Source: a virus
Length of the DNA: 64,000 nt
Direction: 5' to 3' (one strand)
Virus record (IMG/VR): IMGVR_UViG_3300003873_000002
Coordinates: 62,001-126,000 of that record
A program made the translations under genes and the position numbers. Below are positions 4,881-47,733 of this stretch, in pieces; the stretch's first letter is position 1, and the number at the start of each line of letters is the position of its first letter. Below the pieces are notes generated by a model, which did no database searches, was not told the DNA's origin, and saw only the letters and a program-made list of their open reading frames with translations.

Positions 4881-7800
4881 TTATCTTTTGTGGATTATAA
4901 TAATACCATTTGAGCCAGACCCACCAAAAGTTGCATCTGTAGTTAAACATACACCACCACCACCATTTCCAAATCCTAGCGCATCTACATGATTGCTTAC
5001 TTCGTCGACTGTGACTACAGTATCATAACTTTTTTGTGCAGAACCACCAACATTATTTGTTCTTGGTAGAAAATTACTATCTGCTATTATATTTTGCCCC
5101 ACTGAAGCACCACCACATCCATAATATTCAGTTTTGCCAGTAATTGAACAAGGATATCCGAATAGGCCATTGCCACCTATTTGATCTGGTGTTTCAGTAT
5201 TTATTGATGATGGGAAATTATAACCCATAAAGCTTCTATCAGTGTATTCAAATGCACCTGACCCACCGCCACCGAGAGATGATCCTCGAGGAATTGACGC
5301 ATCATTATATTTATAATATTCTTTATCTTTTCCAATCATTAAAGATTTTTTTGCACCTTCATAATTTGCATCTAATGGCATACCACCACAACAACCACCT
5401 TGCACTTGGCTATAGTCTTTATTGCCATGAAAGCTTCCACCACCTCCACCTTGCACAGTGATACCAAATGCGGATGTTTCACCACCCCTTACACCAGGTG
5501 TATTTGCTGTTACTGCAAATAATTTACCACCTTCACCGACAACCAAATCATACGTACCAGCTTTTAATTTAAAGAATTTATTGTGGTATACAGCTCCTCC
5601 ACCACCACCACATGGATATGTATAATATGCAGATGAACATGCACCTGACCCACCACCAGCAACCATCATAAGCTCAACCACACAGTCATTGGAAACAGTA
5701 ATTTGGTCGTTACCATAACATGTAAATAATTCTGAACCGTCCTGCAGGATTTCTCGAACAATATTTGTGCCGGTTATTGAAGACTCATTTCCGTTCGTAT
5801 AAACTCTGTTATTATCATATAATGAATTAATGAATGTAAAAGCTTTATCCAAATCTACTTTTTTTGCATTGTTATAAGCAACCATTGAATCATAACTAGA
5901 TGAAATATTAGTAAATCTGTTATTAAAATCAGTGATTTCGCTTTCAATATTTGTAACTTTTGTATCTAAAACATCTACTTTAGATACCGCATTATCAACT
6001 TGTGTATTTGCGTTGTTAATTGATGCAGTCATTACATCTACACGTGCAGACGCATCATCAATTGCGGCAATGGATGTATTAACTTGAGAAATCAAATTGT
6101 TTGTCTGATCACTTAATGCAGTAATTTCAGCTGTTGTTGCTTGATCATTTCTCGCTTCTAGTGTAGTTAATCTAGCCTTTAATGTGTCAATAACACTATT
6201 TGTATTCGCGATATTTGTTGTTATGGATGCTATCTTAGCTGCAGCAGTTGCAACGTCATTACTAAACACATTATAGCTGTCACTCAAATTGTTTGCTTTT
6301 GTTTCTAAATCAAAGACACGTTGAGTATTGATATTAAAAACAAGGTTATTATTTTCAATATTTGTGATTCTTGTATTTAAATCTGTTTCGTTTGCAGTTA
6401 AAGTAGGTAGTTTTGAATCGATATTACTAATATCTGTATTAATACTATTAATTGTGTTATTGATGTTTAATATATCGTTTTTAGCTGTATCTGATTGTGC
6501 TTGTAAATCAAGGATATTATTTTTATTTAGATTATTTACAATAACAGATAAACTATCAACTTTTGTTAAAGCAGTGTTAACATCATCAATAGATGTTTGT
6601 GTGCTCGCAAGTAGTGTTTTATAATCATTTAATAAAGTGTTATAATTATTAACTAATGTGTTATTATCATTCACTAGACCGTCAACAGAAGTCGTTGATG
6701 CAGTATCTTGTCTATTTTTGATATCTGTAACAGATGTTTTAAGTGTATTTATTTGAGTTTGAAGATCCACTCCAACAGTTACATTATTACTATTACGCGC
6801 GATAATATCTGCTAATGATGTACTAATATTATCTGCTTCAGTTTTCAGTGTTGATACATCTGCTGCGAGAACATGATCATAACTAGTATCTAGTAAATCA
6901 ACACGTGTTTTGATATCGTTTAGCACACCGTTTAATGTATCTATATTTGTTTGTGTGTCTGTTGTAGTGGTATTCAATGCCACCATATCATTTTGCATAG
7001 TAGTTATTTGTGACTGCATACTATTAATTGTTTCTGGGGAAACAAGCTGGGCTGTTGCTTCGAGTGATTTAATTCTTGCATCGAAATCTGATATATTTTT
7101 TAACGCAGTTTGCATTTCACTGTATGTACTTTGAATAGTAGCTGACTGTGTTTCTTGATTATTTTTTACTGTCGCAATTTCACCGGGCAATGGGCTGATT
7201 TCTGCTGCATAATTTGAATTGTCACTTTCAATTTTATCAATACGCGATGCAAGTGTGTTTACTAAATCAACTACTTTAAGTGATTTAAATGTAATGGCAC
7301 TAAAATCAATTTTCGATTGTACGGGGTCTACCATATCCAATTCATAAATAGTATTATATTGTGAACCATCAAATGACTCAATTACTAATTTTGTATCTGG
7401 TGTAAATGGCAGTGAAGCTCCACAACGCCAAACCATATTTGAAACCTTAGAAGCATCAAAATCAGAACCGAAATCGAGTGTTATATGATCACCAGTTTGG
7501 ACAGTTAAGAAAAATTTACTTTGTTCATCTACGGTTTCACTGTAAAATGCCGAATCTGTTGACCCGTCACCCCTTACACTTTCCACTACTGATAAATTTG
7601 GGTATGATATGAAATCACCATTCGCGTCATAAAATGATATTGTAGATACAGTATTGTAAGGATATAAATTATTTTTTGAGATTAATGTAAAGCGCATACG
7701 ACGTGTGCAAAGATATATCGCATCGTTGTTGTAAACACCCATGATTTTTTCTATATCTTTGTCATACATTGAAATGGATGTTGTATTAATTCTGTCAGCT

Positions 7801-7952
7801 AATGTGACAAAATTCTGTTGTATTGGCTCATTCCAGTCAGCAGTTCTTTTACCTATTAGAGTTAAACCTTTGTACTGTAAACTTTGGGTAGGTGCCAATG
7901 ATATATTACCCACTGAAGTTGTTAACGTATAAGTTGTATTTGCATCAGACAT
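4881..7952 (-). CDS. Large tail fibre / adhesin with glycine-rich tip
   Basis: This 1023-residue protein starts with an anchor region (YKGLTLIGKRTADWN, then QNFVTLADR) like that of the 1448-residue fibre downstream, so both probably dock to the same virion site. About residues 30-230 form a beta-rich shoulder. About 230-720 are a very long coiled-coil stalk dominated by Asn, Thr, Ile, Asp and Ser. The last ~260 residues form a glycine-rich domain (AGGGSGA, CGGGGGAVYHN, QGGGGGSFHG) ending in GSGSNGIIIIHKR. The tip resembles that of the neighbour, so the two probably arose by duplication with divergence. A TATAAATA late promoter lies 28 bases upstream of the ATG. No signal peptide or membrane segment is seen. 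Confidence 0.85.
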   Translation of the reverse strand: MSDANTTYTLTTSVGNISLAPTQSLQYKGLTLIGKRTADWNEPIQQNFVTLADRINTTSISMYDKDIEKIMGVYNNDAIYLCTRRMRFTLISKNNLYPYNTVSTISFYDANGDFISYPNLSVVESVRGDGSTDSAFYSETVDEQSKFFLTVQTGDHITLDFGSDFDASKVSNMVWRCGASLPFTPDTKLVIESFDGSQYNTIYELDMVDPVQSKIDFSAITFKSLKVVDLVNTLASRIDKIESDNSNYAAEISPLPGEIATVKNNQETQSATIQSTYSEMQTALKNISDFDARIKSLEATAQLVSPETINSMQSQITTMQNDMVALNTTTTDTQTNIDTLNGVLNDIKTRVDLLDTSYDHVLAADVSTLKTEADNISTSLADIIARNSNNVTVGVDLQTQINTLKTSVTDIKNRQDTASTTSVDGLVNDNNTLVNNYNTLLNDYKTLLASTQTSIDDVNTALTKVDSLSVIVNNLNKNNILDLQAQSDTAKNDILNINNTINSINTDISNIDSKLPTLTANETDLNTRITNIENNNLVFNINTQRVFDLETKANNLSDSYNVFSNDVATAAAKIASITTNIANTNSVIDTLKARLTTLEARNDQATTAEITALSDQTNNLISQVNTSIAAIDDASARVDVMTASINNANTQVDNAVSKVDVLDTKVTNIESEITDFNNRFTNISSSYDSMVAYNNAKKVDLDKAFTFINSLYDNNRVYTNGNESSITGTNIVREILQDGSELFTCYGNDQITVSNDCVVELMMVAGGGSGACSSAYYTYPCGGGGGAVYHNKFFKLKAGTYDLVVGEGGKLFAVTANTPGVRGGETSAFGITVQGGGGGSFHGNKDYSQVQGGCCGGMPLDANYEGAKKSLMIGKDKEYYKYNDASIPRGSSLGGGGSGAFEYTDRSFMGYNFPSSINTETPDQIGGNGLFGYPCSITGKTEYYGCGGASVGQNIIADSNFLPRTNNVGGSAQKSYDTVVTVDEVSNHVDALGFGNGGGGVCLTTDATFGGSGSNGIIIIHKR

Positions 7953-7979
7953 TGCATTGAATCCTTATATTTGTGTGAT

Positions 7980-7987
7980 TATTTATA
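7980..7987 (-). promoter_or_regulatory. T4-type late promoter element TATAAATA
   Basis: The minus strand reads TATAAATA here, 28 bases upstream of the ATG of the fibre gene at 4881-7952. This octamer is the whole recognition element of T4 late promoters and is read by gp55-containing polymerase. A gp55-like gene is present at 40831-41601. An AAGGA ribosome-binding site follows before the start codon. Confidence 0.7.
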
Positions 7988-7993
7988 CTTAAT

Positions 7994-8022
7994 ATAAAAA
8001 AAGGGCATTGCTGCCCCTTTTA
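7994..8022 (-). terminator. Intrinsic terminator after the fibre gene at 8060-9970
   Basis: On the minus strand AAAGGGGCA pairs with TGCCCTTT around the four-base loop GCAA, with one bulged base, and is followed by seven T residues. It lies between the stop of the 636-residue fibre gene and the late promoter of the next gene, so each giant fibre can form its own transcription unit. Confidence 0.75.
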
Positions 8023-32509: not shown

Positions 32510-34600
32510 TTAAGGGGCTGATTGTATTGCTTTTTGCTTTGGTACAAGCACTGATGATGTATTGTTTAAGAATAAGTCATTCCTGCCGTTGAAACCCCAA
32601 ACCCACACTTTGTGCTCACTATCTAATGCTACTACAAATTTTCCATGATCAGCACCAGAACATTTTAAATCAATGATATTTACATCATCTGATAAATGGA
32701 CTCTTGTAAATCTATTTACGGGTTTATTTGACCCTATCCCGAGTAACCCAAAATCATTAAACCCACATGAATACAAATTATTGTTTTCATCCTTAATAAA
32801 CATAGCATTTCTATAGGATTCTGTATAAGAATCATAACCATTCATAAATAATTTAGTAATCTTTTTATTCGTATTAACTAATGTTGGTTCATAAACATTA
32901 TGAGGTAAATTTAACCCTAATTGATAAGATTTATTATAACCCCATGCATATAAATCACCATCAACACCTAGAACAAAAATAGACGCAGGTCCACCACCAA
33001 ATACTGAAATTTCTTTAGCTTCTTTTGGTAGAACAGATTGAATTAAAAATGGCTTAACTATATCAATATCTTGTGTGTGGATATCAATTATATTGTTATT
33101 TTTATCATAGATGTAACCGCTTCCGATTTGTCCCCAGTTATTATTTCCGCATGTTAGATACATTGCGTCTTTATTTTTTAATTTTCTATAACAGAGTAAA
33201 AATGATTGTGAATTATAGTCATAAACAGTATTATCGAAATCAGTTGGGTCATCTTTATATTCATATGATCCATCAAGATAACCATTTGAACTATAACCGT
33301 TTACACCATAGAACTCAATTTCCTCATCATTATTTACATGCCCACCCCAAGCTGCAGTAACCAATTCAAATTGATATCGATCAATTTTATCACCTGTACC
33401 TAAATTCCCATTGTGATTATAACCAGCAGCATAAATTTGACCACCTTTTAAAAGCACTATTGTACTTGCATATCTATTTCCAATTGGCCAAATTTTTTCT
33501 ATTGTATTTTCAACGAAGAATGATACAACAGTAAAGACATTAACATGTCTTGTGCCAACTTCTAGAATATCACCAATTCCCATATTACCATATTCATTGA
33601 ATCCACTTGCGTACGCAAGACCATCTTTTTTAATAATCCACGTTGAACTATAATTAATATGTATCCCTGGTGAAATTGGTCTATAGAATGTAACAACATC
33701 AGTTTCAACAAGTTCGGGCACCATAATGGGGTCGTTATGTCCTGCACCACAAGCACCTGTTTTATTATGACCCCATGCCCAAAGATTTCCTGAATCAAAT
33801 AATACAAAACTTTCAGCACCCGACATATCAGATTTTACGTATTTTCCTGTTTCGCCAGGGAACGCTAATCGAAATGAGTTCTGCGCATCATATGTTCCAT
33901 CACCCTTAGGATTATTCTTGACTGTACCACCAAAAACCCACATTTCATCAAGAACTGTTCTAACCATAGAATTACTAAATGACGATCTACTACAAATTTC
34001 AACAGTATCAATACATGATTTAGTTGTTGGTTTTGGTGCAGTTTTCATATCAATGTATTTTTTTGCATTTAGGTATGTTGCTTTATCACCATTATTGGCG
34101 TAGATTTCACATTGATTTATTACATCCATGTCAGAATCTTTTGCAAATTTTTCGGCTGCAGCCAATGTTTCTGTGTCACCTCCATCTGCATATGCTCTGT
34201 CGCTGTTTGATTTATCGTTTAATTTTTTATCTACAATAACGTTATAATCATTTATAGTTTTTTTCTCTGATTCACTGATAAATTTGCGAATTACTTCATT
34301 GAATTGGTTTATTTCAGTTGTGTAGTAATTTTTGAGTTCGTTTTTTACATTTAAAACAGAGTTATCAGTATAAATTGTTGATTGCTCATAAATATAACCT
34401 TCGGGATTTCCACCGGTAAGTATAATTTGCATAACTCTATAAAGTTCTTTTATATTAAGTTGCAATTCGAGTGGTGCAAGATTTAGATTTCTACCAGATA
34501 ATTGGTCATATTTGTTTTTATCATTACCTTCATAGAATGTAAAAATATTTTCAACAGGCAGTTTTAAAATAGTTTCTTGTGTAATAGTGGATTTTGGCAT
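32510..34600 (-). CDS. FYEG-anchor fibre with RCC1-like beta-propeller tip
   Basis: The 696-residue protein starts with NIFTFYEGNDKNKYDQLSG, then NLNLAPLELQLNI, the shared anchor. A helical stalk follows to about residue 190. Residues ~200-690 contain at least six RCC1/BLIP-II-type blades: LWAWGHNKTGACGAG, YASGFNEYGNMGIGD, YAAGYNHNGNLGTGD, TCGNNNWGQIGSG, YAWGYNKSYQLGLN, YSCGFNDFGLLGIG and VWVWGFNGRNDL. RCC1 repeats form a seven-bladed propeller, here most likely a receptor-binding head. It is the first gene transcribed leftward from the divergence zone, with AAGGAAA upstream of the ATG. Confidence 0.85.
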   Translation of the reverse strand: MPKSTITQETILKLPVENIFTFYEGNDKNKYDQLSGRNLNLAPLELQLNIKELYRVMQIILTGGNPEGYIYEQSTIYTDNSVLNVKNELKNYYTTEINQFNEVIRKFISESEKKTINDYNVIVDKKLNDKSNSDRAYADGGDTETLAAAEKFAKDSDMDVINQCEIYANNGDKATYLNAKKYIDMKTAPKPTTKSCIDTVEICSRSSFSNSMVRTVLDEMWVFGGTVKNNPKGDGTYDAQNSFRLAFPGETGKYVKSDMSGAESFVLFDSGNLWAWGHNKTGACGAGHNDPIMVPELVETDVVTFYRPISPGIHINYSSTWIIKKDGLAYASGFNEYGNMGIGDILEVGTRHVNVFTVVSFFVENTIEKIWPIGNRYASTIVLLKGGQIYAAGYNHNGNLGTGDKIDRYQFELVTAAWGGHVNNDEEIEFYGVNGYSSNGYLDGSYEYKDDPTDFDNTVYDYNSQSFLLCYRKLKNKDAMYLTCGNNNWGQIGSGYIYDKNNNIIDIHTQDIDIVKPFLIQSVLPKEAKEISVFGGGPASIFVLGVDGDLYAWGYNKSYQLGLNLPHNVYEPTLVNTNKKITKLFMNGYDSYTESYRNAMFIKDENNNLYSCGFNDFGLLGIGSNKPVNRFTRVHLSDDVNIIDLKCSGADHGKFVVALDSEHKVWVWGFNGRNDLFLNNTSSVLVPKQKAIQSAP

Positions 34601-37141: not shown

Positions 37142-37234
37142 CATTATACAAACAGTATACAAACAGTATACAAACGGTATACAAACAGTATACAAACACT
37201 TCAGTGACCATAGCTTGACCATAGCTTGACCATA
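37142..37234. repeat. Two 11-bp tandem arrays upstream of flagellin
   Basis: About five copies of ATACAAACAGT occupy roughly 37146-37198, and two and a half copies of GACCATAGCTT follow at 37206-37234. Both units are 11 bp. Confidence 0.9.
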
Positions 37235-37379: not shown

Positions 37380-37406
37380 TAACGTTTTTTGTTAAAAGGC
37401 CGATAT
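37380..37406 (+). promoter_or_regulatory. Near-consensus sigma-28 (FliA) flagellar promoter
   Basis: TAACGTTT (37380-37387), an 11-base spacer and GCCGATAT (37399-37406) match the flagellar class 3 consensus TAAAGTTT-N11-GCCGATAA at seven of eight positions in each element and with the exact spacing. The flagellin ATG lies 63 bases downstream. GC-rich GCCGATA is striking in this AT-rich DNA. Confidence 0.85.
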
Positions 37407-37468
37407 ATAATATAAGAGAGAAACAATTAAAACAATTAAAAATATTTTTAAATTAAGGGAGAATTATC

Positions 37469-38293
37469 ATGTCAATGGTTATCAACACAAATATGGGTTC
37501 AGAAAACGCAGTTCGTTTATTGGATCAATCAAGTCGTGAACAAAAAACAGCCATGGAGCGTTTAACCTCAGGTTTGCGAATCAATCATACTGCTGATGAT
37601 GCGGGAGGTGCCGCCGTTGTTGTTAGAATGGATTCACAAGTTAAAGGCATCGATATGTCGGTTCGAAACTCAAAAGATGGTATTAACTTGATTCAAACAA
37701 TGGATGGTGCCGCACAAGAAGTTGTGAATATGCTACAACGCATTCGTGAATTGGGTGTGCAAGCAGCTAACGAAACTTACACCTCAGCTCAAAGAAATCA
37801 AATGAACCAAGAAGTGAGTCAATTAAAAACAGAAATTGACCGGGTGGCTAAAACCACTAAATTTAATGGTATTGCCTTAATGAATGGGTCAAATAAAGTT
37901 TTAAGTTTCCAAGCTGGTTGGGAGACTGCTGCAGAAAATACCATTAGTGTTAGTACTTTTAACTTTAGTAAAGGAAATATGTCTGTTGGAGTAGCAAAAA
38001 TTACCACTCAAGCATTAGCGCTTTCTGCCATTGGAAAAGTCGATATTGATTTATCAAAAATCAATAAAATCCGAGCTAAATGGGGTGCTGTACAAAACCG
38101 CTTTGAACACACTATTACAAATCTTAATAATGTAAACGAAAATATCAAAGCCTCAAGAAGCCAGATTCAAGATACTAATTTTGCAAAAGAGAGTGCTGCG
38201 CTAGCCAAAACACAGGTGTTGCAACAGGCAGGAATGAGTATGTTAACACAATCAAATCAAAATAGCAAACAAGTGTTGAGTTTATTGAGATAA
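37469..38293 (+). CDS. Flagellin (short, D0/D1-type)
   Basis: The 274-residue protein is a flagellin. The N-terminal D0/D1 part (MSMVINTN, then MERLTSGLRINHTADDAGG, VRNSKDGINLIQTMDGAAQE and MLQRIRELGVQAANET) and the C-terminal D1/D0 part (WGAVQNRFEHTITNLNN, then ASRSQIQDTNFAKESA and QQAGMSMLTQSNQ, ending LSLLR) are both complete. The middle is only ~60 residues, so there is no D2/D3 surface domain. Bacterial flagellins of this minimal type can polymerise. A sigma-28 promoter and strong ribosome-binding site precede it. Codon use looks less AT-rich than in the neighbours, pointing to acquisition from a host. It could enter or cap the host filament, or bind FliS or the export gate. Family call is certain; role is inference. 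Confidence 0.95.
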   Translation: MSMVINTNMGSENAVRLLDQSSREQKTAMERLTSGLRINHTADDAGGAAVVVRMDSQVKGIDMSVRNSKDGINLIQTMDGAAQEVVNMLQRIRELGVQAANETYTSAQRNQMNQEVSQLKTEIDRVAKTTKFNGIALMNGSNKVLSFQAGWETAAENTISVSTFNFSKGNMSVGVAKITTQALALSAIGKVDIDLSKINKIRAKWGAVQNRFEHTITNLNNVNENIKASRSQIQDTNFAKESAALAKTQVLQQAGMSMLTQSNQNSKQVLSLLR

Positions 38294-38304
38294 TAAGGTA
38301 TAAT
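38276..38304 (+). promoter_or_regulatory. Possible sigma-70 promoter for the FlaG-like gene
   Basis: TTGAGT (38276-38281), a 17-base spacer and TATAAT (38299-38304) overlap the end of the flagellin gene. The -10 box is perfect and the -35 box matches at four of six positions. It would allow FlaG-like expression without the sigma-28 promoter. Confidence 0.55.
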
Positions 38305-38340
38305 ACATAAAGAGAAATAAAAAATAAAACGAGCACTATT

Positions 38341-38757
38341 ATGAAAATCGATCCTATTAATGTTGTACAGACGCGTATTATTATGGCACAAGAAAACTCA
38401 AATAAAGAAAATACAAAAATACTTGATTTGAATGCAAAAAAAGAACGAGGTGATTCTGTCGATATAAGTCTTGAGGCATATAAAAGACTATCAAAAAATA
38501 AACCTATTGAAAATAGGAAAACTGATGGTACTAGCACTAATGGGATTACAAAAGACCACAACCAACCAAACATTCTAGACCATAAACAAACACAAATGAT
38601 GTTTGTAAAAAAGGAAGGTGTTAAGGATATGGTTGTAGTATTTAAAGATAAAAAGACTGGCGATGTAGTAGCAGAAATACCGAGCAAAAATGCAATTGAG
38701 AATAATAAAAGACTTAAAAATTTTTTAGATAACATTACACTCGATTTATTAGCTTAA
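38341..38757 (+). CDS. FlaG-like flagellar protein
   Basis: The C-terminal half of this 138-residue protein matches FlaG: FVKKEGVKDMVVVFKDKKTG, then DVVAEIPSKNAIENNKRLKNF. FlaG proteins are encoded next to flagellin in many polar flagellates and affect filament length. The N-terminal half is a charged, disordered region, also typical. The gene follows flagellin by 47 bases in the same orientation, reproducing the bacterial fla gene order, so the pair was probably captured together. The ribosome-binding site is weak. Function in the phage is unknown; control of filament length or stability in infected cells is one option. Confidence 0.8.
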   Translation: MKIDPINVVQTRIIMAQENSNKENTKILDLNAKKERGDSVDISLEAYKRLSKNKPIENRKTDGTSTNGITKDHNQPNILDHKQTQMMFVKKEGVKDMVVVFKDKKTGDVVAEIPSKNAIENNKRLKNFLDNITLDLLA

Positions 38758-40232: not shown

Positions 40233-40745
40233 ATGAATATAAAACACTCCCATACAGATTTGATGATTTTGAACCGCAAAGATATAAAAACAGTGCGTTC
40301 ATATTTGTTATCAATACAAAATTCAATATGCCCATTATGTGGGTATCATATAGATGAAGCTGATGCAGTTCTTGACCACCAACACCGGACAAAATTGGAA
40401 ACAATCGGTGTTAATGGCGCTGGTCTTGTAAGAGGTGTTCTTCATAGGAATTGTAATTCAGCTGAAGGTCAATTGCTTAGCAAATTTAAGCGAAGTGGTG
40501 TTAAAGATATTAAATTCGCTGATTTCCTTAGAAAACTTGCTAATTATTACGAAGAAACTAATTATAATTTAATACACCCTAACGAAACAGAAGCCCCCGC
40601 TAAAATGGGTAAAAGACTATTTAATAGAATATCAAAAGCATATAGTGTTAAATACCCTAAAAGAAAACCACTCGAATATCCCAAATCAGGGTTATTAACT
40701 AAAAAATTCCAAGATTTAATCGAAGAATTGGAAATTAGCAAATAA
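40233..40745 (+). CDS. 49: Recombination endonuclease VII (gp49-like)
   Basis: The 170-residue protein has the endonuclease VII core: zinc-binding CPLCG (Cys33, Cys36), LDHQH (about 47-51) and VRGVLHRNCNSAEGQLL, where His71 and Asn75 belong to the beta-beta-alpha-metal active site and Cys74 to the zinc site. T4 gp49 resolves Holliday junctions and debranches DNA before packaging. The length is close to T4's 157 residues. A second zinc cysteine pair is not obvious beyond C33/C36 and C74. The start lacks a ribosome-binding site because a 10-bp repeat array occupies the leader. Confidence 0.9.
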   Translation: MNIKHSHTDLMILNRKDIKTVRSYLLSIQNSICPLCGYHIDEADAVLDHQHRTKLETIGVNGAGLVRGVLHRNCNSAEGQLLSKFKRSGVKDIKFADFLRKLANYYEETNYNLIHPNETEAPAKMGKRLFNRISKAYSVKYPKRKPLEYPKSGLLTKKFQDLIEELEISK

Positions 40746-40830: not shown

Positions 40831-41601
40831 ATGATTAATACACACAATACTGATAATATGTCTATTGATGGAAACATTGACGATGATTTTGTTCTTGATA
40901 TTGAAGAAAAAGAAAACCTTTTAGTAGACGAAATTCATGACGACAACGAAACTGCTGAAAGTGAGATAAAAACATCAGGGGAATTTTTAAGGGGTGTTTC
41001 TAAAAAGGTTAATTATATTAATGATTTAGAATTAACTACTAAGTTATTAAAAGAATCAAAAGAATATAAAGACTATGCATTGTTTAAAGAAAATAACCCC
41101 GGTGGTGAATATAAATATGTTAAAAGAGAAGCACCATCCGACGAGTTATGCCTGAATTTTCTTAAAATTTATGAAGGAATAACACGCAAACCAAATTTTA
41201 GTGGCTATTCCGATGATTATAAAGAAGAATTCTTTTCGAAAGCACAATATTTATTTATCAGACATTGGTTTAAATTTGATCCATTAAAAGTAAGAAAAAA
41301 TTATGTTGTAAATCCGAATTCTAAATTAAAATCAGTTAATGATATAGAGGTTAAAAAATCAAAAAACGGTGTTAAACTAAAAGAAAAAATTGATGCGGGT
41401 GAATTAACATTAAAACCAGAAGAGGCGTTTGAAGGGGGTTTTAGCTGGTTTACAATGCTTTGTGCTACTGCATGTGTTGATAGTATCACAATGTTTAAAA
41501 ACCGTAGAGAAAAACAACGCGCATTAATTAAATCAGTAGTGGATAAAAATACACTAAGTGACGAGCAGATAAAATTCAATTATGACTGGATTGATTTATG
41601 A
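40831..41601 (+). CDS. 55: Late-transcription sigma factor, gp55-like
   Basis: The 256-residue protein parallels T4 gp55. KVNYINDLELTTKLLKESKEY corresponds to the YNYVNNKELL start of gp55. RKPNFSGYSDDYKEEFFSKA, then HWFKFDPLKV corresponds to the NFSGYTQSWKQEM region that recognises TATAAATA. GGFSWFTMLCATACVDSITMF, then KNRREKQRALI corresponds to the region after 'A-Y-I-T-Q-A'. An acidic N-terminal extension of ~50 residues and a charged insert are additions. AGGAG lies seven bases before the ATG. It should direct the late promoters in front of fibre genes and endonuclease VII. Confidence 0.85.
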   Translation: MINTHNTDNMSIDGNIDDDFVLDIEEKENLLVDEIHDDNETAESEIKTSGEFLRGVSKKVNYINDLELTTKLLKESKEYKDYALFKENNPGGEYKYVKREAPSDELCLNFLKIYEGITRKPNFSGYSDDYKEEFFSKAQYLFIRHWFKFDPLKVRKNYVVNPNSKLKSVNDIEVKKSKNGVKLKEKIDAGELTLKPEEAFEGGFSWFTMLCATACVDSITMFKNRREKQRALIKSVVDKNTLSDEQIKFNYDWIDL

Positions 41602-43084: not shown

Positions 43085-44752
43085 ATGGGTGGCAACGCTA
43101 CAGGAACAAATAAAAAGACTGGAGTAGAAGTAGAAGCGGAAAAAATTCCTTTGAAACAAATTGGTCGATCAGAATTTACTAATAAATTCACATCAGTTTT
43201 TAAAGAATTAAATTCAATCTTTAAAAAAGAAAATAAAAAACCAATTTGGGTCGATGAAAATAAAATCACTACAGGTGAATTGTTTAACGGATCGACTTCA
43301 TTTATTTTCGATGCCTCGATTCCTGACGATGAAATTGTTAAATATAAAGAGTTTGCTGGTGATATTGATATCATCGTCCCTGATAATTTAAAAACTGAAT
43401 TATGGAATATGCTTGATAAATTAGAAGGCAATGAAGTTATCCCCGGCGTTACTTATATTGGATCAAATAAACCAACAGTTAAATCAATTGGTGACCAAAT
43501 TAATGCTGTCTTTGTTGCAACATTTAATGAATCAAAAATCGCGGTTCAGGTTGATTTTGAGTTTCTTGAAGTTGATGAAAATGGTTCACCATCTGAGTGG
43601 GCAAAATTTAGTCATAGTTCATCATTCGAAGATGCAAAAAAGGATATTAAAGCAGTACACCACAAATATTTGTTACAATCATTGATTGGTGGTGCATCTA
43701 TTAGAGATGATATTGTAATTGCAACTCCATCATCTACACCAGAGAAAATTAGATTCAAGAAAATGAATGATTTACCACGTATGTTGAAATTTAGTGTTGG
43801 TCGTGGTATTCGAACTGCATATGAATTAATGTACGACATGGATGGTAATGTTATTCAACATAACGGAAAAGACGTATATAGGGAAATTCCGTCAAAATCA
43901 AGTAATTATGAAACAATCGTCGCTAACATCTATAAACTGGCATTTGGGCGTTTAGATGATAACAAAGATGATGTTAAATTATTCGGATCGTTTGTTGGTT
44001 TGATTGAATTAATGAAGAAGTATTTAAATAAAAAACAGGTTCTTAATACATTGGATAGATATGTAGATAAATTATTCCGTGTAAAACCACCACGGGGTCA
44101 GGAATTGGAATCACATGATAAAGAATTAGATTACCGCGTTAAGATTGTTGGGTATGAATATTTCCTTAAACATTTAAACATTACTGATTCGAAATTAAAA
44201 GACAAATACAAAAACCAAATTGATCTTTATTATAAGGAATGGAGAGGCAGACGCGATGAGAATTTGGTTAGGGGTATTATAGATAGTATCATTGAAAATC
44301 GAGTTAAAAATAGTAATGAAGATGCTGTTGATGGTAGTGATATCACACCTGATGATATGAGCACAATTGCTAGTGTAGGTGCCCAACCAGTCATCAGTAA
44401 TATTCTCGTTAGTGTCAAAAATAAGAATATTGATATTGGCGATGATATTGGCGATGATATCGGTGATGATATCGGTGATGATATCGGTGATGATGATGAT
44501 ATTGATATAGGTATTAGTGATGATGATGCCAAAAGCATGGGTATTGATATTGATAATGGTGATGATGATGATGATATTTTACTTGAAAATGTATTAGATA
44601 AAACATTTAGTCTTGCGTGGTATATTACTACTATCGAGCCAGGTCTTGATTTCGTAAAACTTATTAATGAGTTACCTGAGGAAAATTCTGATTTGGAAGA
44701 TTTGAATGATATTGTCGATGCTGTTATTGAGGCGTATAATATAGGACAATAA
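43085..44752 (+). CDS. Pol-beta-type nucleotidyltransferase-like protein
   Basis: Residues ~65-165 of this 555-residue protein carry the pattern of minimal nucleotidyltransferases: NGSTSFIF (G69-S70), then FAGDIDIIVPD (D93 and D95, the metal-binding D-x-D) and VQVDFEF (D157, the third carboxylate). The middle region (~180-420) is helical. A highly acidic tract made of Gly-Asp-Asp-Ile repeats (about 450-475) follows, then a helical tail. CAGGAGA precedes the ATG. It heads a close run of four genes, followed by a PD-(D/E)XK-like protein and a ligase/NMNAT fusion, suggesting one pathway. The catalytic triad supports activity; the substrate is unknown. Confidence 0.6.
   Translation: MGGNATGTNKKTGVEVEAEKIPLKQIGRSEFTNKFTSVFKELNSIFKKENKKPIWVDENKITTGELFNGSTSFIFDASIPDDEIVKYKEFAGDIDIIVPDNLKTELWNMLDKLEGNEVIPGVTYIGSNKPTVKSIGDQINAVFVATFNESKIAVQVDFEFLEVDENGSPSEWAKFSHSSSFEDAKKDIKAVHHKYLLQSLIGGASIRDDIVIATPSSTPEKIRFKKMNDLPRMLKFSVGRGIRTAYELMYDMDGNVIQHNGKDVYREIPSKSSNYETIVANIYKLAFGRLDDNKDDVKLFGSFVGLIELMKKYLNKKQVLNTLDRYVDKLFRVKPPRGQELESHDKELDYRVKIVGYEYFLKHLNITDSKLKDKYKNQIDLYYKEWRGRRDENLVRGIIDSIIENRVKNSNEDAVDGSDITPDDMSTIASVGAQPVISNILVSVKNKNIDIGDDIGDDIGDDIGDDIGDDDDIDIGISDDDAKSMGIDIDNGDDDDDILLENVLDKTFSLAWYITTIEPGLDFVKLINELPEENSDLEDLNDIVDAVIEAYNIGQ
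44438..44497. repeat. Intragenic 12-bp repeats coding for Gly-Asp-Asp-Ile
   Basis: About five copies of GGYGATGATATY code for an acidic tract in the nucleotidyltransferase-like protein. The unit preserves the reading frame. Confidence 0.95.
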
Positions 44753-46137: not shown

Positions 46138-47733
46138 ATGTTAAAGAAAATTGTAGAAAATGCAAAAAACCACAGATCTGAAAATATTTTAGAAGCAAAA
46201 ATGTTGGATATCAGTATTAAAACCGTTAATAAATTTGCTACAAATCCAAATAAATGCTCTGTATTTCTTAGTGAGCCGGTTGATGTTTATCAAAAAACCG
46301 ATGGTGTGAAGATTACATTAATCCGCACAGACACATCGTACGATAATACAATTGACGGTTTTTATAGGAACTGGGTTGTTGCATATAAAAACAATATTCT
46401 TTTTCATGACGAGTACAACTATGCCACACATAAAGATATTCACCATACTGTGGGTGCATCACAATTTAGTGTAGTATTAAAACATTTTTTGTCATTGCAT
46501 ATCAGAGGTGCCCTTAAATCAATAAAGAAAAACACTGAGTATCTTATTGAATTTTTAATGAAAAAGCCGACACTTTCAAGTAACTATAAAACCAAGCATG
46601 GCATGGTATTAATAGGATATGCAAGAAGCTCTTATAAGATTAAAAATGGTAAAGTAACATCTACACCAAAATTATTTAAAACCATCGGTAGGGAGTCAAT
46701 TGCGAGCGTATTTGATATTGATGTGCCCATGCATGTGTTCTCTGGTGTCCTTGGTGATTTTGATAATTTCCAGAAAAATATTATCGATACTAGGTTAGCA
46801 CCAATCTTCTTAAAGTATAAAGCTAGTTTAGAATCTGCACCAGATAGTTGTAGTGTTATAGATATCATGAGAAATGTTTTTATTGAGCTAGAATCTGTTT
46901 ATGGGGGCAATGAAGAAGGTGTTGTTATTACTGCAAAAAACAAATCATTTAATCTAAAATTTCAACAGGATTACCAAGTCGATCAAAAAGCCAGACAAAT
47001 TATTAAAATGAAGCACCGAATGGACGCTAAAAACAACGAAATATATTGGGAAAATGTTAGAAATTTCGCAGATGGGATTATTAAAGAGCTTGATATTAAA
47101 ATGGGTGATACTACACCATTAAGAACTTTGCTTAGTAGAGTAAGCAATTTATTAACTCAAACCAGAATTGATATAGATTTTAAAAATAGTAAAAAAACAA
47201 TGAGTACCATTGTTGATGATATCCAACTAACAATCAAATCAAAAATAATCAGAATGTTAGCCGGTAATAATGGTGCATTAATTATTGGTAAATTTAGAGT
47301 GCTTACAAATGCGCACACAAAAATGATTAATGATGCACTTAAAAAATATGATACTGTTAATGTAGCTATTATCTCAAATAAAAATACCAAGAAAAATTTG
47401 CCTGTTATTGTCAAAATGATTGGACTTACATTCGGTAGCAAAATTAATGTAGCGTTTGCAAGTACTGGCAATATTATTACATTGCTAGGCAAATTTGATG
47501 ATAATATTAATACTGTTATAGCAGGCACCGATCGTGTGGAAGCTTATAAAAAACAACTACTGAGATCACCTGATATGAATATAGAGGAAATTGTGAGAAA
47601 AGATATAGATATCTCAGCGACTAAGGTAATCAAATCATTATCAGATGGTGATGAGTTCTTTTTAGCAAACACGCCGGAGCCAATACATGGCATGTACAAC
47701 GAATTAAAACACATATATGTTGATAACCAATAA
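46138..47733 (+). CDS. Fusion of a ligase-like adenylyltransferase and an NMNAT-like domain
   Basis: Residues ~45-290 of this 531-residue protein look like an ATP-dependent ligase/capping-type nucleotidyltransferase: VYQKTDGVKITLI holds K53-T-D-G, the K-x-D-G lysine that becomes adenylylated. GGNEEGVVITAKNKSFNLKFQ resembles motifs IV-V. Residues ~375-531 look like a cytidylyltransferase/NMNAT domain: IIGKFRVLTNAHTKMI holds the (H/T)-x-x-H motif as T-N-A-H, and DISATKVIKSL resembles the I-S-x-T-x-x-R motif. The two domains are joined by a helical region. The protein may join or cap nucleic-acid ends and use or make NAD-type dinucleotides. Both domain calls are by motif. Confidence 0.6.
   Translation: MLKKIVENAKNHRSENILEAKMLDISIKTVNKFATNPNKCSVFLSEPVDVYQKTDGVKITLIRTDTSYDNTIDGFYRNWVVAYKNNILFHDEYNYATHKDIHHTVGASQFSVVLKHFLSLHIRGALKSIKKNTEYLIEFLMKKPTLSSNYKTKHGMVLIGYARSSYKIKNGKVTSTPKLFKTIGRESIASVFDIDVPMHVFSGVLGDFDNFQKNIIDTRLAPIFLKYKASLESAPDSCSVIDIMRNVFIELESVYGGNEEGVVITAKNKSFNLKFQQDYQVDQKARQIIKMKHRMDAKNNEIYWENVRNFADGIIKELDIKMGDTTPLRTLLSRVSNLLTQTRIDIDFKNSKKTMSTIVDDIQLTIKSKIIRMLAGNNGALIIGKFRVLTNAHTKMINDALKKYDTVNVAIISNKNTKKNLPVIVKMIGLTFGSKINVAFASTGNIITLLGKFDDNINTVIAGTDRVEAYKKQLLRSPDMNIEEIVRKDIDISATKVIKSLSDGDEFFLANTPEPIHGMYNELKHIYVDNQ

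Follow-up and report, generated by a model that had tools for sequence, protein, structure and literature searches.

The closest described system is FRphi, a temperate, lambda-like Enterobacter phage whose flagellin, FliCP, replaces that of the host with the aid of TldR, an RNA-guided repressor directed against host fliC (PMC13418256). The FRphi protein enters host filaments and raises motility (PMC13418256, Nat Microbiol 2026). Its authors considered the TldR-associated flagellins to be the first known prophage-encoded ones, and found none that was flagellum-dependent among more than 1,100 environmental phages screened (PMC13418256). In the literature that we searched, with subscription papers and preprints outside it, phage-encoded flagellin is known from temperate Enterobacter-type prophages with TldR alone, and we found no paper on flagellin in lytic phages. 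The locus analysed here shares with FRphi the presence of a flagellin gene on a phage genome; filament entry and motility gain are properties of FRphi. Whereas the FRphi flagellin has large outer domains and its phage represses host fliC through TldR, the present phage is of the T4 type, apparently lacks an integrase and couples a flagellin made of D0/D1 only to a FlaG-like gene. A search of its genome for the TnpB/TldR type (PF07282) gave no match, in a family-level test that a TldR without the domain signature could escape. T4-type phages carry auxiliary host genes, for example the psbA of cyanophages, which keeps photosynthesis going. The likeness lies in a bulk host protein made from a T4-type lytic phage and apparently sustaining a cell function; psbA, however, specifies a photosystem part, and flagellin a structural protein that is exported to form part of a motility organelle. 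Among bacteria, the flagellin-FlaG loci of Thiomicrospirales (Hydrogenovibrio, Thiomicrorhabdus) have a flagellin of the same family and length with FlaG downstream and a sigma-28-like site upstream, but there fliD and fliS follow, whereas the phage copy is without these genes and is 37-50% diverged.

The window, the whole stretch of 64,000 nucleotides that was analysed, represents bases 62001-126000 of a linear IMG/VR record of 154,123 b (IMGVR_UViG_3300003873_000002, here G000); the features discussed are collected in Table 1. A first-pass annotation made from the letters of the window had described a flagellin and a FlaG-like gene in a T4-type phage genome, and this description holds. The record encodes a Gp23-type major head protein (PF07068, 4.6e-20), a T4-type DNA polymerase, topoisomerase II, clamp loader and helicase, as well as a ribonucleotide reductase and an ATP-dependent DNA ligase. 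No tyrosine integrase (PF00589) was matched in this possibly incomplete record, as against matches in 14 of 14 control genomes; judged by this family, the phage is apparently strictly lytic.

Table 1. Features in and around the flagellin locus (positions in the window)
Feature	Position	Strand	Basis
P-loop kinase-like protein, left phage flank	36527..37129	+	PF13671 1.5e-7
Tandem 11-bp units (TATACAAACAG)	37145..37198	+	four overlapping 21-nt copies, 11-nt spacing
Sigma-28 (FliA) promoter-like site TAACGTTT-N11-GCCGATAT	37380..37406	+	14/16 consensus positions
Shine-Dalgarno-like AAGGGAG	37455..37461	+	read directly from sequence
Flagellin, D0/D1 only, Thiomicrospirales type, 274 aa	37469..38293	+	Pfam, tree, AlphaFold2
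FlaG-like gene, 138 aa	38341..38757	+	PF03646 1.1e-5
205-aa phage protein, right phage flank	39162..39779	+	42% identity to G002 gene
Endonuclease VII	40233..40745	+	PF02945 1.6e-9; 44% identity to G002 gene

Phage genes lie close to the flagellin-FlaG segment on a single contig, the nearest about 340 bp to the left and 400 bp to the right. The left-hand gene has homologues in the related phages G001 and G002 (43-44% identity). On the right, the G002 homologues of the 205-aa protein and endonuclease VII genes are adjacent, and further genes with G002 homologues (40831-41601, 43085-44752 and 46138-47733) keep their order in that phage, where the homologue of the left flank sits at the opposite end of the block. 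At the matching place, upstream of the homologue of the 205-aa protein gene, G002 is without flagellin; it has a different flagellin some 16 kb away. One could envision that the assembler had joined a bacterial fragment to phage contigs, and the GC content of the flagellin gene (37.6%) does exceed the phage mean of 30.7%. However, that of the FlaG gene is phage-like (29.7%), two joins within about 2 kb would be needed between genes that are phage on either side, and independent phage flagellins occur in other assemblies, one of them in two samples. Since the segment is embedded between phage genes that have homologues in related phages, a host fragment placed here by assembly error is very unlikely, and we reject a chimeric assembly, whose probability seems close to nil. 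Host DNA misjoined to phage contigs, the danger to which the first-pass annotation had drawn attention, is thus very unlikely to be what the locus contains. Elsewhere in the window, more than ten long ORFs that look like tail-fibre genes form an array at 522-34600 on the minus strand; several have a common N-terminal motif like LPNxTIFxFYEGxDxxKFxDLTGxxLN, and the one at 32510-34600 (minus strand) contains RCC1 repeats (PF00415, 6.9e-32).

Neither the flagellin nor the FlaG-like ORF contains a frameshift or stop. Matches to Flagellin_N (7.1e-37, residues 5-142) and Flagellin_C (5.6e-22, residues 189-273), both nearly full length, classify the product by its conserved N- and C-terminal D0/D1 regions as a bacterial flagellin of the FliC family, complete and minimal with both conserved ends, as had been proposed. 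An AlphaFold2 model (mean pLDDT 81.5), for which 15 bacterial relatives were used, predicts long helical arms at residues 8-100 and 181-273 with a short beta region between them, in a D0/D1-like arrangement; solved structures are known for flagellins of similar length (about 270-286 aa). The lack of D2/D3 domains, stressed in the first-pass annotation, stands as an observation but loses its significance for the phage: the nearest bacterial flagellins are equally short (about 272-310 aa), so that the absence is an inherited host trait and no phage adaptation. The FlaG-like protein matches PF03646 over its C-terminal half alone (residues 77-128), over the cut-off in the genome search, and on this half its classification as a FlaG adjoining flagellin depends. 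Its identity to host FlaG is roughly 23-36% over about 45-80 aa, a similarity too low for it to be placed on a tree. FlaG is found downstream of flagellin in the bacterial loci L009-L024, bearing out the expected order, which agrees with capture as a pair. In tblastn searches, FliD, FliS, FliT and FleQ were absent from the phage.

The bacterial flagellins nearest to the phage protein belong to Hydrogenovibrio, Thiomicrorhabdus and Thiomicrospira, with up to 63% identity. A maximum-likelihood tree with candidate hosts, a check that had been proposed at the outset, places the phage flagellin next to those of Hydrogenovibrio as their sister (100/96), nested by this phylogeny among the flagellins of Thiomicrospirales. 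From the flagellin alone, the host would be a Thiomicrospirales-like gammaproteobacterium. The database search proposed alongside it returned bacterial relatives of both proteins but no close viral relative of the flagellin in IMG/VR (single-protein query, first alignment); in INPHARED it found only unannotated contigs below 47% identity, which may be bacterial. Two of the flagellin contigs, L011 and L012, are near-identical over 3 kb and are filed under a Campylobacterales MAG and a Thiotrichales MAG, respectively; the former, having a Thiomicrospirales-type protein, is probably mis-binned.

Upstream of the gene, 89 nt before the ATG, lies a site that resembles the sigma-28 consensus, TAAAGTTT-N11-GCCGATAA, and matches its spacer exactly. 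No better sigma-28-like site occurs across the 154 kb, no other reaching 14 positions with an 11-nt spacer, and it is the sole match in the window when up to 3 mismatches are allowed (shuffled sequences give about 1.2 per window). Two of about 2,050 sampled 300-nt phage stretches, overlapping and taken on both strands, reach a score of 14. Similar sites stand some 90-115 nt upstream of many Thiomicrospirales flagellin genes. The phage site, which the first-pass annotation had missed, looks like the host's own motility promoter, a putative one; a TATAAT overlaps it, and use by sigma-70 is possible. Ahead of the flagellin genes of two other phages, the sigma-28-like site is weak in G002 (11/16) and was not found in G019; it is therefore no universal feature of phage flagellins. 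The tandem 11-bp units farther upstream may be unrelated to the flagellin.

This host-type control bears on the idea that the flagellin belongs to the virion, with a structural or adhesive role. Helical filament proteins are adaptable to tails, and a tail-fibre array lies nearby; nevertheless, sigma-28-type control, the accompanying FlaG, a position away from the head and tail genes and the fact that the ends needed for export and assembly are both fully kept make this very improbable. More plausibly, and with somewhat better than even confidence, we propose that a filament subunit encoded by the phage is built into the filament together with that of the host, sustaining or remodelling motility during lytic infection. 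In a motile infected cell, host RNA polymerase with sigma-28 would transcribe the phage flagellin; the product would be exported by the host flagellar apparatus and polymerise with host flagellin, FlaG might tune filament length or stability, and the cell, its own genes being shut down, would keep its filament or gain a modified one. We favour this motility reading because the assembly parts are intact, the promoter-like site is of host type, FlaG is present and flagellins in other phages are under purifying selection. The recurrence of flagellins in other large phages and the FRphi precedent, a phage flagellin that assembles and raises motility (PMC13418256), point the same way. Of the roles first suggested, sustaining or altering motility fits best. 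Receptor masking is possible, the exposed middle being the diverged part, and blocking of the filament is not favoured, given that assembly regions and host-type promoter-like site have been kept.

How the protein has diverged is informative in this respect. Compared with L008, the phage flagellin shows 74% identity in the N region, 66% in the C region and 28% in the middle; against Hydrogenovibrio flagellins the ends are 63-74% and the middle 28-37% identical. Six of 104 host-invariant residues are changed, as against 0-4 in host copies, and among the changes are A46G, A64S and N69K, all within the N-terminal helical region. Conserved ends and a diverged middle indicate that the assembly parts were kept while the exposed middle moved. 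It is this divergence of the exposed region that makes a change of surface the main rival explanation: a new filament with a different exposed face could let the cell escape flagellum-binding phages or grazers. We consider this rather unlikely, as bacterial copies likewise vary most in the middle (56% identity between L008 and L010), the pre-existing filament would still be exposed during lytic infection, and the FRphi authors thought superinfection exclusion unlikely (PMC13418256). The altered residues could also be those of a poison or decoy. A diverged and strongly expressed subunit might jam export or filament growth, or titrate flagellin-binding regulators such as FliS (in other lineages FliW-CsrA), with the outcome that motility is stopped or a regulator is freed for the phage. 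This appears distinctly unlikely: the flagellin is accompanied by FlaG, host-type promoter and leader control take the place of strong phage expression, and both protein ends are constrained in pairs of phage flagellins.

The evidence for constraint comes from other phages, whose flagellins we retrieved from IMG/VR with a lineage-mixed alignment. G002 is a T4-type phage of 154,998 b, and the same flagellin gene occurs in a second sample (L065); G019 (146,525 b) has a terminase, G171 (172 kb) and G172 (290 kb) both have Gp23, and G170 is a 21.6-kb fragment with a flagellin. The flagellins of these five form one clade (SH-aLRT 99) among those of Campylobacterales. Within this Campylobacterales-type clade, pairwise dN/dS (NG86) was 0.053/0.85 = 0.06 for G171/G172, 0.286/1.79 = 0.16 for G002/G019 and 0.270/1.05 = 0.26 for G019/G170, with constraint at both protein ends. 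Purifying selection, which the first-pass annotation had suggested looking for in related phages, is therefore seen in Campylobacterales-type copies; the window's gene stands outside these pairs and was compared with host copies alone. The flagellins of the other phages are also intact, and not frameshifted in most genomes, the finding that would have told against the first-pass reading. An AU test rejected a single phage clade for G000, G002 and G019 (p = 1.1e-4), from which it follows that flagellin was captured at least twice by phages on this phylogeny, whose long branches call for caution. This count leaves out three records whose bacterial relatives lie outside the tree sampling: G173 (142 kb) and G177 (122 kb), a pair with flagellins that are Gram-positive-like by eye and neighbours encoding phage DNA polymerase, RNA ligase and PhoH, and G174 (329 kb), whose flagellin is spirochaete-like by eye and has three neighbours with no PHROG match. 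Also not counted are G175 and G176, isolate records that may be prophage or host. Most related phage records, many of them fragments, are without flagellin, and a Thiomicrospirales-type copy is known in one phage. This distribution would suit a recent, accidental capture, functionless and soon to be lost; yet the copy is intact while differing by about 37% from its closest bacterial counterpart, purifying selection acts on the phage copies of the other clade and capture was repeated, so that passive cargo is quite improbable.

Companion genes and leader control extend the comparison. In G000, G170, G171 and G172, a FlaG gene adjoins flagellin or is found a short distance from it, and CheY-like response regulators are encoded 3-5 kb from the flagellin-FlaG operons of G171 and G172 (L111 11888-12247, PF00072 8.6e-31; G172:C1:33599-33943, PF00072 7.2e-25). 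Searches of the window's phage gave no match to a response regulator, CsrA or the TnpB/TldR type. In G002 and G019, a small convergent gene beside flagellin has no Pfam or NCBIfam match and is modelled as a four-helix bundle, for which the top Foldseek match is FliS (1ory; 3iqc at TM 0.71) with E only 0.05-0.13; hhalign against FliS is weak (probability 20%). G171 and G172 have a small gene between their flagellin and FlaG genes; it shows no likeness to FliS, and we rejected that identity. CsrA-type hairpins with ANGGA in the loop occur in the flagellin leaders of G019, G170 (read by eye), G171, G172, G173 and G177 (loci L111, L112, L113, L117, L066 and L110; the L117 example is ccaattcAAGGAAgaattgg). 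Among 256 phage ORF leaders taken as background, flagellins included, a hairpin of this kind with a stem of at least 5 was seen in 17, and two sites in four. The same kind of hairpin is present in several Campylobacterales chromosomal flagellin leaders, and no convincing one was seen in the window leader or in six host leaders tested. A candidate in the window leader was discarded, having four A-T pairs and being absent from the minimum-energy fold. This distribution indicates a tendency of flagellin phages to retain whichever type of control prevails in the lineage of their host.

It is tempting to speculate, with a little less than even confidence, that flagellin modules with host-type control have been taken up time and again by lytic phages from several unrelated lineages, which use them to steer or sustain the swimming of infected cells. 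Such modules would comprise flagellin, FlaG, sometimes a CheY-like gene and possibly a FliS-like chaperone, under a sigma-28 promoter or a CsrA hairpin leader, and might form an unrecognised class of phage motility takeover genes that need neither lysogeny nor TldR. That apparently lytic T4-type phages carry intact flagellin operons would mean that lytic phages have a stake in the motility of the cell they infect. At least two bacterial source lineages, with purifying selection in one, are the basis for this significance, and suggest that the swimming of infected cells is repeatedly taken over, or sustained, by viruses of this kind.

Several minor observations were made in the other phage records. 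A response-regulator domain lies inside a 705-aa open frame of G174 (G174:C1:164212-164559). TnpB/Cas12f-type domains (PF07282) are found at G001:C1:7864-8067 and G172:C1:265875-266075, the latter far from the flagellin of that phage, and L112:10384-10623, near a flagellin, has a TnpB-like start by eye. In G170 (L110, 6666-8690), a 1,203-b insert (6798-8000) interrupts the flagellin gene after ...AADD. The insert resembles a group I intron, is without an Rfam match and has an ORF of its own (6838-7710) that is HNH-like by eye; joined in frame, the exons give 274 aa.
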